Virus record (IMG/VR): IMGVR_UViG_3300036770_001978
Location: 1 to 64,000 of that record
Strand: one strand, 5' to 3'
From: a virus
Length of the DNA stretch: 64,000 nt
Shown: positions 3,748 to 40,227 of the stretch, piece by piece
How positions within the stretch are numbered: the first letter of the stretch is position 1
Layout of the letters: every line of letters starts with the position of its first letter
Translations under genes and position numbers: made by a program
Notes under the pieces: generated by a model
Databases searched by the model: none
What the model saw: only the letters and a program-made list of their open reading frames with translations
Told to the model about the DNA's origin: nothing

Positions 3748-3995
3748 CGCTCGAACAATTCGCCCTGATTTCATTGGGCCACATAAGTCTCGCCTGCACG
3801 TTCGTGCTTGGCGTTTTGGTCGGTTGTTCTCTTTCGAAGAAAAGGACTTCACATGGCTACGGCAACGAAGGAACGTCGCAAGACTGGTGGCATCACATTG
3901 AGCGCCGCCGAGCTGAAGAGTGCTCTCGCCGCTGTCAGCCCGGCTGTGCCAACAAGGGCACCAAAGCCGGTGCTGACGAACGTGCGTCTGGGTGA
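3744..3995 (+). CDS. possible small membrane protein
   Basis: An 83-codon frame begins with an ATGA overlap and encodes one hydrophobic segment (LGHISLACTFVLGVLVG) before the clamp gene starts. Its last 143 bases overlap the clamp gene in another frame, and that part looks like ordinary shadow coding. Either a real single-span protein with a long overlap, or a non-gene spacer. Confidence 0.4.
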   Translation: MTLEQFALISLGHISLACTFVLGVLVGCSLSKKRTSHGYGNEGTSQDWWHHIERRRAEECSRRCQPGCANKGTKAGADERASG

Positions 3996-4965
3996 CGGGC
4001 TCGTCACCGGCACTGATCTCGAGGTGCGGATCGACGCCGCCATCGACTACCATGGCGATGCCATGCTGCTGCCGCACGGGCGGCTCATGGCGATCCTGAA
4101 CGCCGCCGGTGGCGAGGAGGTGACCCTGGAGCCGAAGGGCACGTCGTGCGTCGTGCGGTGCGGACACGGAACGTGGACGCTGCCCGTCGAGGACGCGGCC
4201 GAGTACCCGATCTGGGAGCCGAAGGACGCGAAGCCCGTGACGCGGCTCCCGGCTGACCAGTTCGCTCGGGCGGTGCGTGGCGTGGTGTTCGCCGCCGACC
4301 AAGAGTCGAGCCGCTACGCCCTCGGGGCGGTGCTCGTGGACGTGAAGGACGGCGTGGTCAACTTCGTGGCCACCGACGGCCGCCGGCTGTGCTCGTCGGA
4401 GATGGAGCACGACCTGGCCGTCGATGACACAACCACACTGGTGCCGAGCCGCGTGATGCAGATCCTGGCCCGCGTCGCGGTGGCGGCCGGCGAGGACTCG
4501 GTGCAGCTAGAGGCCACGGCGAACGAGCTGCTGGCCACCATCGGCGGCACGACCGTCACGGCCCGGCTGACTGAGGGCCGCTTCCCCAGGTGGCGTGACG
4601 TGATCCCGGCAGACGGTGGCGAGCCGACCACGGTGCTGGCCACGGAACTGTTGTCGGCGACCAGGGCGGCAGCCATCGTGACGAGCGAGCAGTCGAAGGG
4701 CGTGCAGTACACCTTCACGGCTGAAGGCATCCACCTGCACGGGCAGTCTGCCGAGTCCGGCGAGTCGAGCGTGACGTGCGAGATCGTGGAGGCCGGCAAG
4801 GCGTGCACGGTGAAGCTCGATCCGGTGTTCGTCCGCAAGTGGCTCTCGGGCCTGCCGGCTGACGGCGAGCCAACGGTCAGCGTCCAGGCCACGGACGCTC
4901 AGTCGGCCGTCGTGCTTCGCACGGACACGTTCACCGGCGTCATCATGCCCCTGGCCACGGAGTGA
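3853..4965 (+). CDS. dnaN: DNA polymerase III beta subunit (sliding clamp)
   Basis: A 370-residue protein of the normal clamp length. It would form a ring around DNA and tether a replicative polymerase. Diagnostic blocks are in the expected order: VLTNVRL in domain 1, RYALGAVLVDV and FVATDGRRLCSSEM in domain 2, LTEGRFPRWRDVIP at the domain 2/3 border and TGVIMPL at the C-terminus. The ATG at 3853 is preferred over an in-frame start 45 bases upstream because AAAGGA precedes it and it begins close to the clamp domain. No polymerase gene is seen in the window, so this clamp may recruit the host enzyme. Confidence 0.95.
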   Translation: MATATKERRKTGGITLSAAELKSALAAVSPAVPTRAPKPVLTNVRLGDGLVTGTDLEVRIDAAIDYHGDAMLLPHGRLMAILNAAGGEEVTLEPKGTSCVVRCGHGTWTLPVEDAAEYPIWEPKDAKPVTRLPADQFARAVRGVVFAADQESSRYALGAVLVDVKDGVVNFVATDGRRLCSSEMEHDLAVDDTTTLVPSRVMQILARVAVAAGEDSVQLEATANELLATIGGTTVTARLTEGRFPRWRDVIPADGGEPTTVLATELLSATRAAAIVTSEQSKGVQYTFTAEGIHLHGQSAESGESSVTCEIVEAGKACTVKLDPVFVRKWLSGLPADGEPTVSVQATDAQSAVVLRTDTFTGVIMPLATE

Positions 4966-5288: not shown

Positions 5289-6064
5289 CAGACCGCGACC
5301 ACTTCGCCGCTGCGGCCCTGACGGGGCTGTTGTCCGACAAGGCCAATCAGTATCCCACTGCATTGCAGTGGGAGCAACTGCTGAAGCACGCCTACCGCTG
5401 TGCCGACGCCATGCTCCGCGCGCGGGAGCGAACCGATCATGACGCCGCGCCGGCGGCGACAGCCCCGACAGACGCCAGCCCTCTCCGCTCGGCGCAGAGC
5501 GTGACGGCTGGTATGGGCACCGGCAATCAGACTGCTCCACCATGCGTGGAGGCAGATGGCCTCTCGTCTGCGATAGCGCAGCCACCGGCCTCCAGCGATG
5601 GAAGCGGCGAGGGGCGGCCCCTAGACGACACGCGGCCCGACACAAAGGGAGAAGCGACGGGTGGGCGGGGGCGCAATACAAGTGTTACCAACGGAGACAC
5701 ATCAGCAAAGCCTGTTGCCGAATCTCAAGATCAGCGACAGGAGCCGGTGGCGTGGGCCGTGTTCTGCGGCGACTCTCGCTTCTGCTATGACCACTACGAC
5801 GACGAGTGCGAGGCGCAGGCCATCGCGGATATGCTGGCGGGCGATGATCGCGGCGACGGTTTGTGGCATATCGTCCCGCTCTACCGCGAGCCGCAGACCT
5901 GCCCCTACGTCGTTGGCCGCACCACGCTGCACTGTTCGCTGACGCCGCTCACGCTCACCGACGCGGAGCGGGAGGCGATCAGGTTCGCCGCCGTGTTCTA
6001 CTCGCAGGGAGGGCGAGCGGCTGACGCCGCCACGCTCCGCAACCTACTGGAGAGGACAAAATGA
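5285..6064 (+). CDS. hypothetical modular protein with C-terminal LTD..ER module
   Basis: About 259 residues; GTG at 5285 overlaps the previous stop. The N-terminal 45 residues (DHFAAAALTGLLSD...AYRCADAML) form a small helical domain seen in many phage accessory proteins. A low-complexity Ala/Thr/Ser linker follows. Then comes a domain with QEPVAWAVFCGD ... WHIVPLYREPQ, a recurrent phage module of unknown function. The last 45 residues (LTDAEREAIRFA ... ADAATLRNLLERTK) match a module repeated in three of the next genes. Confidence 0.65.
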   Translation: MTDRDHFAAAALTGLLSDKANQYPTALQWEQLLKHAYRCADAMLRARERTDHDAAPAATAPTDASPLRSAQSVTAGMGTGNQTAPPCVEADGLSSAIAQPPASSDGSGEGRPLDDTRPDTKGEATGGRGRNTSVTNGDTSAKPVAESQDQRQEPVAWAVFCGDSRFCYDHYDDECEAQAIADMLAGDDRGDGLWHIVPLYREPQTCPYVVGRTTLHCSLTPLTLTDAEREAIRFAAVFYSQGGRAADAATLRNLLERTK

Positions 6065-6339
6065 CCAGCGTCTGGCTCGTCACGAACGGCGGCAGCGGGG
6101 AGGATGGCGACGAATGGCTGCTGGACTCCATCTACGCAACGAAGGAAGGCGCAAAGGCTGGGCGCACCAAGTGGTTCAATGTGGTCGAGGAGTCTGTGCT
6201 GCGTGGCAGCATCCTCACCGACGAGGAGCGAGAGGCGATTGAGAGGGCCATCGGGCGAGAGTTGGACGCCGAGTGGTATGGCGGGCCTGAACCAGACAGG
6301 GTGGTGGCGCTTCGCGGGCTACTTGAACGGCTAGGCTGA
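6061..6339 (+). CDS. hypothetical protein ending in LTDEER module
   Basis: A 92-residue protein. The N-terminal half (VWLVTNGGSGEDGDEWLLDS) looks like a small beta-rich domain; the C-terminal half is the repeated module LTDEEREAIERAIG ... VVALRGLLERLG. The final codons and following bases (GAACGGCTAGGCTGAGAACG) are identical to those ending the gene at 6978-7235, evidence of recent duplication or cassette exchange. Confidence 0.6.
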   Translation: MTSVWLVTNGGSGEDGDEWLLDSIYATKEGAKAGRTKWFNVVEESVLRGSILTDEEREAIERAIGRELDAEWYGGPEPDRVVALRGLLERLG

Positions 6340-6422
6340 GAACGCCAGCGATCTGCGGCCCGCGACCGCTGACTTACCATACCGGCAGGCGGCATCGCGG
6401 GTCCGCTGCATCGCGTGGTTCC
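6339..6422. repeat. attC-like inverted repeat A
   Basis: Left arm 6339-6360 (AGAACGCCAGCGATCTGCGG...) and right arm 6401-6422 (...CCGCTGCATCGCGTGGTTCC) are imperfect inverted complements separated by a 40-base spacer. Outer AAC...GTT and unpaired bases inside the arms resemble integron attC sites. It fills the gap after the gene at 6061-6339. Confidence 0.65.
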
Positions 6423-6442
6423 AAAAAGCAAAGGAGACAGAC

Positions 6443-6691
6443 ATGAGTGATTTGATACCGCCGATGATGCCTGACGATCTGGACGCACTCATTCAGGCGA
6501 TGGAGCGGGTGCAGCAACTAGAGGCAGAGGTGGCAAAGTTGCGACTTACCGACGAGGAGCGGGATGCGGTGATAGCGGCGCGAAAGCACCTCTTGTGGCT
6601 CGCGCCGCCAGACTCCAATGCGCAGGACACCGTTGATGCTCTTGGTTCGCTGCTGGAGCGCTTGGCTCTCAACGTAAAGGAGTTGACATGA
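6443..6691 (+). CDS. hypothetical protein with LTDEER module
   Basis: An 82-residue protein with an AAAGGAG site 8 bases before ATG. A short acidic N-terminus (LIPPMMPDDLDALIQAMERVQQ) leads into a coiled-coil-like VQQLEAEVAKLRL and then the repeated module LTDEERDAVIAARKHL ... DALGSLLERLA. It lies between attC-like elements A and B and overlaps the next gene by 4 bases. Function unknown. Confidence 0.6.
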   Translation: MSDLIPPMMPDDLDALIQAMERVQQLEAEVAKLRLTDEERDAVIAARKHLLWLAPPDSNAQDTVDALGSLLERLALNVKELT

Positions 6692-6981
6692 CGCCGTTTG
6701 GATTTGTCCTGTCGGTTGCCGCGCTAGTGGTGGGACTGCTGCTTGGATACTTCGCATCTTGGGCGACACCAAAGCCTGCGCCAGATGACTACGCCGACTG
6801 CCTGATTCACCCCGAGACAACGCCGCAGGTCAAGTGGGTGAAAATGACTCGGCCGACCAGGGACGCGATCATCGACATCTACGCGGCCAACATGGACGAG
6901 TGCAAGAAGTTCATGGAGGCGAACGACCGCGTTACGACTGGCGAGGCGGCGATACTGTGGCTGATGGAAAAGGCGAAATGA
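6688..6981 (+). CDS. small single-span membrane protein
   Basis: A 97-residue protein with one N-terminal membrane helix (FVLSVAALVVGLLLGYFAS) followed by a soluble charged domain (TRPTRDAIIDIYAANMDEC). Type and role unknown. It starts inside the end of the preceding gene (ATGA) and its stop overlaps the next start, so all three genes between elements A and B act as one unit. Confidence 0.65.
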   Translation: MTPFGFVLSVAALVVGLLLGYFASWATPKPAPDDYADCLIHPETTPQVKWVKMTRPTRDAIIDIYAANMDECKKFMEANDRVTTGEAAILWLMEKAK

Positions 6982-7235
6982 TTCACAACACATGCCCATG
7001 CTGCGAAGTGTCACGCCCGCCGCACCGCGATGACTGCACGTTTGCGGTCGATTGCCCGGAGGCGTGCGCGGACTTTGACTACGTTGCTAACCTGCGGCTC
7101 ACCGACGAGGAGCGGCACGCCATCGCGGTCGTCCGCAACTGCGCCATGACGCGAGCCGAGCGGTTTCTAACGCAGAGCGATGCGGAGAGGGAGGCGACAC
7201 TGGTGCTGTGGAGATTGCGGGAACGGCTAGGCTGA
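6978..7235 (+). CDS. Cys/His-rich small protein with LTDEER module
   Basis: An 85-residue protein. The N-terminal 30 residues have the cysteine/histidine pattern NTCPCCEVSRPPHRDDCTF and CPEAC, a likely small zinc-binding site. The rest is the repeated module LTDEERHAIAVVRN ... ATLVLWRLRERLG. ATG 6978 is chosen for its ATGA overlap. The stop codon is also the first base of attC-like element B. Confidence 0.6.
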   Translation: MIHNTCPCCEVSRPPHRDDCTFAVDCPEACADFDYVANLRLTDEERHAIAVVRNCAMTRAERFLTQSDAEREATLVLWRLRERLG

Positions 7236-7319
7236 GAACGCCAGCGATCAGCGGCATCGAACACAGGAGCAACCATGGGAGACGAGGTAGATGAGATGTC
7301 CGCTGCATCGCGTGGTTCT
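7235..7319. repeat. attC-like inverted repeat B
   Basis: Left arm 7235-7255 (AGAACGCCAGCGATCAGCGG) and right arm 7298-7319 (CCGCTGCATCGCGTGGTTCT) pair at AGAAC/GTTCT, GCGAT/ATCGC and CAGCGG/CCGCTG, leaving unpaired bases between blocks. The 42-base spacer holds the ribosome-binding site and start codon of the next gene. Confidence 0.7.
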
Positions 7320-7754
7320 GTGATCGCACCCCGCGACATCCTTGACGAAGCCCGAGACTTCCTGAAGCCGCACGGGTCGGCAGACGAGGTTGCCCGCTAC
7401 CCGGTCGCTTCCCTTGTGCTGCGGCTGGCGGATGAGTTGCGTCAGACGCGAGCCGCGTTCGGCGATCTGGACGAGCAGGAAAAACTGATCGCGCAACTGG
7501 AATCACAACTGGATGGCTGCTGCAAGAAACTGTGGGTGGAGTGGGTGCCGGTTGCCGAGCAACTGCCGACACGCGATCAGGTTGTTCTCGTCGCGTGGGA
7601 AGGTTGGGAGTTGGTGACGTTGGGGCACTTCATCGACGGCGATTGGTTCGACCCGGTGGTAGCCATTTCCGAGTACGGGCCGCCGACGCACTGGATGCCG
7701 CTGCCGATTGGGCCGCGACCGCCAGTTCCGGCCCCGCCGAGCGACAGTAAGTAG
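7275..7754 (+). CDS. DUF551-domain protein
   Basis: A 159-residue protein. Its C-terminal half matches the phage DUF551 pattern: WVPVAEQLPTRDQVVLVAW, LGHFIDGDWFD and THWMPLPIGPRP. The middle (DLDEQEKLIAQLESQLDG) is a probable coiled coil. The start codon and the first 15 residues lie inside attC-like element B, so the N-terminus MSAASRGS is encoded by the repeat. Function of DUF551 is unknown. Confidence 0.75.
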   Translation: MGDEVDEMSAASRGSVIAPRDILDEARDFLKPHGSADEVARYPVASLVLRLADELRQTRAAFGDLDEQEKLIAQLESQLDGCCKKLWVEWVPVAEQLPTRDQVVLVAWEGWELVTLGHFIDGDWFDPVVAISEYGPPTHWMPLPIGPRPPVPAPPSDSK

Positions 7755-7758
7755 CCAC

Positions 7759-7844
7759 AGAACGACAAGGATAAGGAGCATCGCATGACTGACGAAACAA
7801 CACCACAGGACGGCAAGGCGATGTCTCCTGCATCCGCTGGTTCG
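7759..7844. repeat. attC-like inverted repeat C
   Basis: A diverged copy: left arm 7759-7779 (AGAACGACAAGGATAAGGAG) and right arm 7823-7844 (CTCCTGCATCCGCTGGTTC). Against copy B, GCGAT becomes GGAT with ATCGC becoming ATCC, and AGCGG becomes AGGAG with CCGCT becoming CTCCT. Both arms changed together, so the folded shape is conserved. The spacer (43 bases) again carries the next gene's ATG (7785). Confidence 0.6.
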
Positions 7845-8087
7845 CTGTTCCTGATTACAGTGCCACTTGGAGACGGACTGGTTGGTATCAAGTGCATTGA
7901 GGACGAGGACAAAACGCCCGGCATCCTGATGCGAGCGCTGACCAAGCCATGCGACATCGGGGCCATGTCGCCAAAAGGCAACAGCGAGAACTTTGGCGTT
8001 TTCGTCCGATGCCCGAAACTGGAGTCGGCTCAAGTGCTGCTCAAGGCGGTGCAAGAACTGTGCGACACACTGAAGGCGAAAGAGTAA
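7785..8087 (+). CDS. hypothetical protein
   Basis: A 100-residue protein. The first 20 residues (TDETTPQDGKAMSPASAGS) are encoded by attC-like element C and resemble the start of the gene before. The remainder (SLFLITVPLGDGLVGIKCIED ... AQVLLKAVQELCDTLKAK) is a plausible alpha/beta domain of no known family. Ribosome-binding site AAGGAG lies 8 bases before ATG. Confidence 0.55.
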   Translation: MTDETTPQDGKAMSPASAGSLFLITVPLGDGLVGIKCIEDEDKTPGILMRALTKPCDIGAMSPKGNSENFGVFVRCPKLESAQVLLKAVQELCDTLKAKE

Positions 8088-8130
8088 GCGAACGCCAGCG
8101 ATCAGCGGCCCGTCCGCTGCATCGCGTGAC
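8088..8130. repeat. attC-like inverted repeat D (compact)
   Basis: Left arm 8088-8109 (GCGAACGCCAGCGATCAGCG...) and right arm 8112-8130 (GTCCGCTGCATCGCGTGAC) are separated by only a few bases. The inner blocks CAGCGG/CCGCTG and GCGAT/ATCGC are identical to copy B, but the outer GTT has decayed to GTGAC. Looks like a collapsed or decayed copy. Confidence 0.6.
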
Positions 8131-8150
8131 TGCACACAAACTGTCGAAAA

Positions 8151-28362: not shown

Positions 28363-28695
28363 GTGATGTACGCAGGGTCGGCTTACGGATTCAACTCGGG
28401 CGGATCCTCGCGTCAAGAGGCGTACAACTACAACCCCGTGACCGAGCAGTTGGCTCGGAACCAGCAGATGCAGGCGTACCAGCAGTCGCCTGACTATCAG
28501 CGTGAGATGTACGAGCGCGGCCTCCAGCAGCAGGAGCAGCAGCGCCGCATGTACGACTCGCAGACGGCCCGGCAGTCGCAAGAGCGCAAGTACGGCGTCC
28601 TCGACGGCCTGATGAAGAAGATGGGGCAGGGCGACGGGGCTGGCATGCCGTCGTGGGGCTTCAGCGTCGGCAAGGGCGGCACCACGAGGTACTAA
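28363..28695 (+). CDS. Gln-rich small virion-region protein
   Basis: About 110 residues; GTG 28363 and ATG 28366 are both possible starts. The core (LARNQQMQAYQQSPDYQREM ... QQQEQQRRMYDSQ) is a charged Gln-rich helix, ending in a Gly-rich tail. Composition resembles internal core or ejection accessory proteins. No homologue recognised. Confidence 0.55.
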   Translation: MMYAGSAYGFNSGGSSRQEAYNYNPVTEQLARNQQMQAYQQSPDYQREMYERGLQQQEQQRRMYDSQTARQSQERKYGVLDGLMKKMGQGDGAGMPSWGFSVGKGGTTRY

Positions 28696-38800: not shown

Positions 38801-39318
38801 CGGAGGCGGCGTTTGGCAAAGACCTGTTCACCAACCGCCCGCTCTCCGAAGCGACCTCCTCGCTCGACGCCATCGCTCGTGCCGTGAGCGGCAACCCGTA
38901 CGCTGACGTGCCAACCGTCATCGAGAAGCCCGTCGAGTCCCTGCCGTTCGTTGGCCGTCCGCTGTACGTCGCCCGCTCGCTGCTCGATGATCGCGGAGGT
39001 CAGTCGCTCTCGCATCGCGTCGGCAAGACCACCTTGAATGCCCTGTCCGGAATCAAGATCCGTGACGTGGCCCAGCAAGACGCTCTCGCGGATGCCGTGC
39101 GGCAGATCGAGGAGTCCATCGACCCGTACACCCGTGAGTTCAAACAGACCTACATCCCCGAGCATCTCCAGCCGGGCGTGCCGCAGTGGGCGTTGCAGCG
39201 GATGGCCGTCTCCCGAGCGCTTGGTCGCGAACGTCGCGAGGCTCGGAAGAAGGTCGGCGAGAAGAAGAAGCCCAAGAAGCGGAAGTCGGACACCAGTGGC
39301 ATCTCCCTATTTGAGTAG
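35839..39318 (+). CDS. giant internal virion / polyvalent-type protein
   Basis: A 1159-residue protein. The central and late parts resemble large phage polyvalent proteins: AFLKYLDSYTQAWRGSILAW near residue 660 and MEKSLLKAVFPWYSYQSRIF near 865, the latter like the FPF/FxxF region of LPD38-type domains, with IPSGLRSQFAFPIPEVFGG after it. The C-terminus is strongly basic (RREARKKVGEKKKPKKRKS). It probably enters the cell with the DNA. It converges with the integrase gene, overlapping by 12 bases. Confidence 0.7.
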   Translation: MASMFPDGLFPQERKRSRGYIPLLDDALLADEPVEEDAVTPQERASVLSEIGAVTGGTLSRVGDALAAPGDYLRGALAGKTGERVTGRELNRMAGLAGPEDNWFNFAGGLATELVTDPLSMLSGASRALTPAGKAAAKLAGPVGSLLDTAPTALTRKAISTGMADDLLPAVARRTKKQLEATGRTLSTFDPATIGRPLYGTRTARRAGTLDDLIKYADDPKAAEESARQLLGDAQLAQIRNQPLAKSFGLGLPLGDPLVVGDWLGKGFGDTYADVLDSVGQAYRWSPLGRGMAAGFDARVGGKIDAEEQITNIANFQARKVGGGAATAEHTLQLARLQQAHPEVFGDETGNRALGRYVEGPNARTPADVAYVESRPQLKAYADWWMTNRERMLSESRQMGLNAAPLTDAYGIEYLPRRAEASLEMEARSNRKVGDALSAFTTDALRRTDAMQVPGGRDTIIDLSRDTQVSGGKRLLTNDEDAAAYIRDKLNAMVSPGQPQVGISQARHIARILNKLPDNVVQKAPLFGQHPTEMIGSYMRNKGESLGTARTLYDSLATFAVNEPYNTVSGGRHISLQTALQRLGLKTYDDALDDIFEVLPDGTSRTIPQQQGAAAQMRERLANLLGKDADEINLNQFSIPEEHINRLTRAKDLYSTGEASGAFLKYLDSYTQAWRGSILAWPSRAVRDLYSGALSNWLEGALDLDSVRAAKALVMEGPDSEKFRRTLASIPRYANDDGLAQFYADLSSTGLVSSGSVSDLSASVTGQRALDNIIGSDPISMSSIGRELGKGWNRQDFFNWRSKLNPLAEQTNPLLRAGERLNSLSDGVNRLTGYLSLLKQGYDPMAAAAAMKRAHVDYSSLSGMEKSLLKAVFPWYSYQSRIFREVLRQLAERPGGRYGQLIRATEAVQDEGEDTYIPSGLRSQFAFPIPEVFGGVPAPGTQTYLTDIDAPGFDQINMIETPGTIGGMASGTARQIAMQTHPGIRMIAEAAFGKDLFTNRPLSEATSSLDAIARAVSGNPYADVPTVIEKPVESLPFVGRPLYVARSLLDDRGGQSLSHRVGKTTLNALSGIKIRDVAQQDALADAVRQIEESIDPYTREFKQTYIPEHLQPGVPQWALQRMAVSRALGRERREARKKVGEKKKPKKRKSDTSGISLFE

Positions 39319-40131
39319 CGCCGGCACGCACGGGATGTCCCTTCGCACCTGCGACCAGTCGATGTAGCACCGCTCGGCAAGTCCAGGCGTCTTGTGACCG
39401 AGATGCAGCCGACCCTTGCCGGGATTCTCCATCTCGATGTGGGTGGCCCCGCTGCGGCGTAGCCACTTCGATGAGCCCGAGAACTTGATGGAGCGCAGGT
39501 ACTTCCGCATCCGCCGCCGACCTGAGTTCCTCGACATCACCCACCCCAGCACGCGGCCATCGGGTGACCGCGCCAGCATCTCCTGGACGGCCAGCAGGCA
39601 GGGCTGGCTCATGATCTTGACGTGCGGCTCGCCGGTCTTGTGCTGCGACCAGCGGACGGTTCCGGCGTCAAGGTCGAAGTCATCTTGCCGCATCTCCCAC
39701 AAGTCCCCCTGCCTCGCACCCGTTTCGTACCCCAGCAGCATCCAGCACCGCAGGAACAGGCCGACCGTCACCCGCTTCCGCCGCACCTCTTTGGTGAAGC
39801 CGAACGTCCCCTTGACAGCCGTACAGCACTGTTCTATAGTCCACGCCCGAGTCGGACGCCGGGCGACTTTGATCTTGACGATTCCGCGTGGCGGTCGATC
39901 AACTGCTTCGGTTTCGTAGGCCCATTTCCAGATGCCCACGAGAATCGCTCGCTCGGTCGCTGCGGTAATCGAAGCCACCTCGACGATTCGCTTTTGCAGA
40001 TACGTGTTGATGGCATCGACTGACATGGTGCGACAGGCCGAGCAGACAGCACGGACATTTCGGGCGTAGTCAGGACTGACGGATCGGGAGCGTAGGTATC
40101 GCTCCACCAAAACATGGAGGTTCTTGCACAT
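39307..40131 (-). CDS. int: tyrosine recombinase (integrase)
   Basis: A 274-residue tyrosine recombinase that would integrate or excise the phage genome. Catalytic residues visible: Arg140 in YETGARQGDLW, Lys165 in SQHKTGEPH, box KWLR at 222-225 (Lys replaces the usual His, Arg225 kept), His246 in HLGHKTPG and nucleophile Tyr256 in CYID. The start MCKNLHVLVE at 40131 is preferred; an extension of 28 residues is possible but looks disordered. An SAM-like N-terminal domain fits. A plus-strand promoter lies inside it. Confidence 0.93.
   Translation of the reverse strand: MCKNLHVLVERYLRSRSVSPDYARNVRAVCSACRTMSVDAINTYLQKRIVEVASITAATERAILVGIWKWAYETEAVDRPPRGIVKIKVARRPTRAWTIEQCCTAVKGTFGFTKEVRRKRVTVGLFLRCWMLLGYETGARQGDLWEMRQDDFDLDAGTVRWSQHKTGEPHVKIMSQPCLLAVQEMLARSPDGRVLGWVMSRNSGRRRMRKYLRSIKFSGSSKWLRRSGATHIEMENPGKGRLHLGHKTPGLAERCYIDWSQVRRDIPCVPALLK
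39812..39840 (+). promoter_or_regulatory. near-consensus sigma-70 promoter antisense inside integrase
   Basis: TTGACA (39812-39817), a 17-base spacer and TATAGT (39835-39840) on the plus strand, inside and antisense to the integrase gene. It points to the recombination operon that begins about 450 bases downstream. A match this good is uncommon in G+C-rich DNA. Confidence 0.65.
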
Positions 40132-40227
40132 GGTTGCCCCACTTGATGTGAGGGGTGGATTTTCTGGATGCGAAACCGACTTGCAACTCGGCGGCGCATC
40201 CGGAAAGTCTGGCACCCCTCAGATGGA

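Follow-up and report, generated by a model that had tools for sequence, protein, structure and literature searches.

Integron attC sites classically end in boxes of the form RYYYAAC..GTTRRRY. In the usual cassette layout the attC lies at the 3' end of the gene, and inverted cassettes are known exceptions. An attC has two or three extrahelical bases on its R''-L'' arm, including a conserved G and T spaced 6–8 nt apart, and the bottom strand is cut within R', after A and before C (PMC2727003). Clusters of attC sites without an integrase (CALINs) occur in 21 named phage genomes, and IntI1 recombined five of the six phage sites tested (Qi et al. 2023, PMC9892861). The locus analyzed here, within a 64,000-nt stretch (the window) of a phage record of 67,752 bases, resembles those CALINs in that an attC array stands in a phage without an integrase. 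It differs from that report (PMC9892861) in its start-codon sites and in reassortment on a population scale, neither of which is described there; its text contains neither "Planctomycet" nor "start codon".

Analysis of the window indicated that it very probably carries an integron-type array of three cassettes that lacks an integrase, in an uncultured tailed phage, with the attC inverted to the 5' side of the genes, a host IntI presumably acting in trans, and a translation start presumably derived from the attC loop. The source record has a recognizable major head protein, a sliding clamp, and a distant terminase. Integron sites in phages were known before, while the inverted layout and the start-codon attC appear to be new; no report of start-codon attC sites was found in the open-licence papers searched.

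Identification and fold of four attC elements

The first-pass annotation of this DNA had described four inverted repeats, and all four (elements A–D, Table 1) were recovered by a covariance model (80, 69, 62, and 35 bits after rounding). The seed of the model consisted of 62 host and viral copies, including A, B, and C but not D. Across the 64 kb, the model yielded no convincing copy beyond these four; a weak match at 28459–28504 on the minus strand (12.8 bits, E 0.03) is probably due to chance. A tRNA search returned nothing.

Table 1. Positions of the attC elements, putative cassettes, and neighboring genes in the window
Feature	Position	Strand	Basis or remark
attC element A, long non-coding loop class	6341–6420	+	Covariance model, 79.8 bits, 2e-30
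Element A boxes	R' AAC 6341–6343; R'' GTT 6418–6420	+	Alignment and pair counts
Element A extrahelical bases	T6402, C6409	+	They mark this strand as the bottom (recombinogenic) one of the attC
attC element B, start-codon class	7237–7317	+	Covariance model, 68.7 bits; frame test
Element B loop signals	RBS AGGAG 7265–7269; ATG 7275–7277	+	
attC element C, second start-codon class, compensatory arm changes	7761–7842	+	Covariance model, 62.4 bits; frame test
Element C signals	RBS AGGAG 7774–7778; ATG 7785–7787	+	Class C comprises 50 copies
attC element D, short class	8091–8131	+	Covariance model, 34.9 bits, 2e-11
Element D boxes	R' AAC 8091–8093, intact; R'' degraded, ACT for GTT	+	Sequence
Putative cassette 1 (AA^C to AA^C): element A and ORFs 6443–6691, 6688–6981, and 6978–7235	6343–7238	+	Linkage test, ORFs
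Putative cassette 2: element B and ORF 7275–7754 (159 aa, DUF551; attC-derived leader MGDEVDEMSAASRGS)	7239–7762	+	
Putative cassette 3: element C and ORF 7785–8087 (100 aa; attC-derived leader MTDETTPQDGKAMSPASAGS)	7763–8092	+	
92-aa ORF upstream of A	6061–6339	+	3' part 93% identical in nucleotides to a Cyanobium integron cassette gene (L318)
DNA polymerase sliding clamp (PHROG 947)	3808–4965	+	Conserved anchor in relatives, with the variable cassette region downstream of it
302-aa phage-type tyrosine recombinase (PHROG 1)	39307–40215	-	Far from the array, not IntI, not assigned to the system

In the common fold revealed by aligning 41 bacterial with 21 viral long elements, the AAC/GTT ends are followed inwards by an unpaired spacer, by three paired blocks of five, six, and six pairs, and by a variable loop; an extrahelical C separates the first two blocks and an extrahelical T the last two, and 95.3% of the alignment cells are paired. 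Twelve of the 20 pairs have changed on both sides, and double-change cells number 112, compared with 21 in shuffles (0/500) and 12–26 in slid controls. Comparison of sequences thus shows an attC fold with covariation, as the earlier argument for a selected folded strand had anticipated, and the compensatory changes which that argument had noted between B and C are one instance of this general pattern. Folding of single copies, the check it had proposed, gave modest z-scores (-0.6 to -2.8), so that the evidence is carried by the alignment and not by the energies.

The AAC/GTT ends are essentially invariant in the alignment, and to this extent the AGAAC...GTTC outer pair of the first-pass annotation is conserved; its further G-C reflects base composition, with no covariation (0.674 observed vs 0.681 shuffled). 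The two bases next to AAC/GTT on the outside show no covariation, in line with their belonging to different cassettes. Nor is the outer pair common to all four copies, since D retains its left AAC but reads GTGACTG in place of GTGGTTC on the right. The RRRY part of the classical box is absent from the viral set, where the R boxes read GTTCT or GTTAT, which agrees with the mismatch to GTTRRRY noticed earlier.

Further comparison with attC showed paired L and R boxes, an unpaired central spacer, and a variable terminal structure. Alignment columns 67 (mostly T) and 74 (C) are unpaired, lie six bases apart, and are located on the right arm; the first extrahelical base is C, not G as in described attC. 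Because the extrahelical bases are on the right arm, the plus strand of the window corresponds to the bottom strand and the left AAC to R', and a cassette is therefore an element together with what follows it. This is the reverse of the polarity drawn at first: the site belongs to the downstream gene, and the exchange point is the left AAC. These sequence features support the assignment of the four elements as integron-type attC sites of gene cassettes.

Related sites in viruses and bacterial integrons

Exact whole-element searches of viral contigs returned none because the loops vary, while patterns of the arms succeeded, matching at least 119 IMG/VR stretches each. The arm-pattern matches listed and the relatives found through the sliding clamp, after removal of duplicates, comprise 253 distinct viral elements: 110 of the short class, long non-coding elements of class A (35), class M (12), and 2 more, and start-codon elements of classes B (44) and C (50). 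The non-coding classes, which make up more than half of the copies, carry neither an RBS nor a start codon within the element. Nothing useful was found in the named phages and plasmids searched, and a search with the 613-aa ORF led to one related contig, which ends before the array.

A scan of 84,980 genomes revealed the same sites as arrays mainly in Planctomycetota metagenome-assembled genomes (MAGs). IntI above the curated cut-off was present in 13 of the 18 such genomes examined and adjoins the array in several. The viral sites share arms, boxes, spacers, extrahelical bases, and length with these chromosomal integron attC, which adjoin IntI, and one covariance model describes both; they differ in lying 5' of the gene, in loops that are shortened or carry an RBS and ATG, and in their GTTCT/GTTAT boxes. 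The earlier proposal that the elements are attC sites bounding gene cassettes is supported by these arrays, and the novel recombinase which it had considered possible is unneeded, since the same sites adjoin bona fide IntI genes. IntI (TIGR02249) was absent above the cut-off from the 50 longest viral contigs and absent from the window, where the only integrase is of the phage type and no intI lies in cis; the window array is therefore CALIN-like. The recombinase at 39307–40215 (-) is possibly a lysogeny integrase. As a probe for the host, the capsid protein gave one 25% match in 392 Planctomycetota genomes and none in 386 genomes of the phylum of Cyanobium.

Phage cassettes in bacterial integrons

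In a chromosomal integron of Cyanobium sp. FGCU52, on a contig (L318) with lipA and an IntI gene (302 bits to PDB 2A3V), there are three phage-type elements with phage-type genes, including a stretch 93% identical over 149 bases to window positions 6214–6362. Next to that stretch, two copies of a mazEF-like cassette lie in tandem, one after a phage attC and the other after its own attC, and both junctions read G followed by TTAGAGAG (cut G^TTAGAGAG). On a second Cyanobium contig, a phage cassette 93% identical to viral contigs ends exactly at the AAC of an unrelated attC. A Planctomycetaceae MAG carries two such elements on its IntI contig, one with 92% identity to a viral contig. Assembly error is an unlikely source of the Cyanobium cassettes because several junctions fall at the same dinucleotide. 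Since an IntI-bearing Cyanobium array holds phage cassettes joined at G^TT, a host IntI working in trans is the likely engine of exchange. The tandem mazEF-like cassette (L318:14197-15720) is identical at 500 of 500 sampled bases, suggesting a recent duplication.

These junctions also bear on the nature of the repeat. Imperfect palindromes between genes, in a genome with a non-IntI tyrosine recombinase, would be in keeping with REP-like or terminator-like hairpins, or with a mobile repeat served by an unknown recombinase of its own. Terminator and promoter scans at the elements remained at chance level, with no terminator signal, and an Rfam search gave no match, which speaks against the terminator or REP family that had been named among the grounds for refuting an attC assignment; moreover, the same sites stand beside bacterial IntI and join integron cassettes at G^TT. 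We regard such a hairpin or self-mobilized repeat as very unlikely.

Exchange point and reassortment of cassettes

For a linkage test independent of the fold, the viral flanks were sorted into downstream and upstream gene families. Different partners were found in 41 of 42 downstream and in all 25 upstream families, as for a cassette that is the exchanged unit and reassorts freely. Element class agreed within downstream families at 0.774, compared with 0.277 after shuffling (0/2000), and showed no linkage within upstream families (0.179 vs 0.272 shuffled). The three nucleotides before AAC behaved in the opposite way, agreeing within upstream families at 0.871 vs 0.275 (0/2000) and not within downstream families. 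Per-base profiles revealed that upstream identity stops at AAC. This break in linkage at the left AAC is the cut position predicted by the structure, between A and C of R' on the bottom strand, and the G^TT junctions in Cyanobium mark the same point. In relatives with a 94–96% identical sliding clamp, the cassette content behind the clamp varies, and relatives with 94–99% identical flanks carry different cassettes; the proposed test for gain or loss of genes at GTT thus had a positive outcome, with exchange at GTT/AAC.

Some observations do not fit one cut site. About one-quarter of same-gene pairs have differing element classes, and in two viral contigs with nearly identical flanks (L245 and L151) a gene swap has taken place at the right end of a site that has a mutated left AAC. 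A second route of exchange, perhaps homologous recombination through the arms, therefore probably contributes. When only the start-codon classes are considered, the left spacer shows linkage to neither side, and selection could partly explain why element class and gene go together. The short element concerned (L151:7661-7702, L245:11840-11881) has ACA for the left AAC and is fixed behind the same upstream gene, with the right gene swapped at GTTCT; ACA-for-AAC short elements are also present in L238, L248, L262, L139, and L173, where a dead R' box at one end of the site goes with exchange at the other. The two contigs share an array end (near 12437 in L245 and 8248 in L151) reading GAACAAGTATTCGCCGGCA, which may be another site class or the end of the array.

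Could homologous or annealing recombination, with a phage annealing protein or RecA shuffling genes through shared linkers of about 20 bp and no integrase, account for the whole pattern? The lack of IntI in the 50 longest viral contigs, the conservation of the arms over about 20 bp, the same-gene pairs with different loop classes, and the L245/L151 swap would all suit it. Against this, linkage to the upstream gene stops at AAC, with no decay through the left arm; phage cassettes are joined to unrelated cyanobacterial attC that have little sequence in common with them beyond the box; and annealing has no need of covarying arms or conserved extrahelical bases. As the sole explanation, shuffling by annealing is improbable, and we retain site-specific exchange of integron-type cassettes as the main process.

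Inverted layout and start codons within the sites

Codon-bias scoring, used in place of longest-ORF orientation counts (47/25), which were too crude, placed the attC at the 5' end of a gene in 120 of 122 viral inter-element intervals; the 3' position of the usual layout is thus not the rule in the viral set. Host arrays scored in the same way had the usual direction in 22 of 28 cases and the inverted one in 6. As inverted cassettes are otherwise exceptions, the viral layout marks a variant.

Analysis of classes B and C revealed, in the loop, an RBS and an ATG that shares its reading frame with the right arm; this arm encodes S-(A/P)-A-S-(R/A)-G-S, so that the attC supplies the next gene with an N-terminal leader (for example MTDEVDEMSAASRGS). 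Among start-class elements, an in-frame ATG is present in 88 of the 89 with enough downstream sequence and an RBS in 91 of 94. The reading frame stays open for at least 50 codons in 80 of 89 elements, compared with 35 of 178 in the other frames, and every leader has a length divisible by 3. Third-position changes are in small excess, and codon positions give weak evidence that the leader peptide is under selection. In the window, the genes at 7275–7754 and 7785–8087 begin at the attC-borne ATG. The first-pass annotation had seen the elements as separators of small genes, which they are; it had missed that B and C also hold the start codon of the next gene.

Start-associated sequences of Cluster K mycobacteriophages (SAS/ESAS) are likewise repeated elements near gene starts and in part inverted repeats; to our knowledge they have no integron boxes and no exchange point. 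A signal of this kind, serving expression without site-specific recombination, would agree with repeats between small genes and with the RBS and ATG of classes B and C. More than half of the phage attC copies, namely the short and long non-coding classes, lack an RBS and start codon, and elements stand at exchange junctions, so the repeat is not tied only to translation starts; an expression signal would also leave the exchange point and the IntI-adjacent bacterial arrays unexplained. That the elements are start-associated repeats of this type is extremely unlikely, and the start signals are better read as an addition to attC sites.

Proposed mechanism and implications

We propose that each cassette comprises an attC and the downstream gene or genes, with the phage coding strand as the attC bottom strand. 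Because IntI is absent from the window and from the 50 longest viral contigs, we infer that it would act in trans: a host IntI may recognize the single strand in its folded form, for example while the phage replicates, and would cut the left box between A and C, and cassettes could thereby move between phages and host integrons. The loop, as the variable terminal structure of the attC, would be free to change and may have been turned into a translation start. A captured gene would then be read as a fusion with the attC-encoded leader peptide and would not need start signals of its own.

We lean towards a dual purpose for these sites, in which the loops of classes B and C provide RBS, start, and leader, a host IntI in trans serves as the engine of swapping with immediate translation of the incoming gene, and cassettes are fed to bacterial integrons across phyla. 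Integrons normally rely on a promoter located upstream, and each cassette has to bring its own start signals. A recombination site that supplies the start would solve the expression of a captured gene and would make the phage accessory region a source of modular protein fusions. The data preserve traces of natural cassette traffic between phages and the integrons of bacteria among freshwater microbes, through which the origin of integron cassettes becomes directly testable.

The cargo is made up largely of small proteins with no assigned function, DUF551, and a few proteins that act in DNA modification. Cassettes for modification proteins resembling DNA methyltransferases and Mom include L157:586-1341 and other members of the protein alignment; the L157 protein is fused to the attC leader and has a DNA-methylase-like motif by eye. 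A C-terminal segment resembling LTDEERxAI..LLERLG is common to many cassette proteins and appears as a DNA repeat at 6208–6238, 6539–6569, and 7092–7122 of the window, which looks like the reuse of a module within cassette genes.
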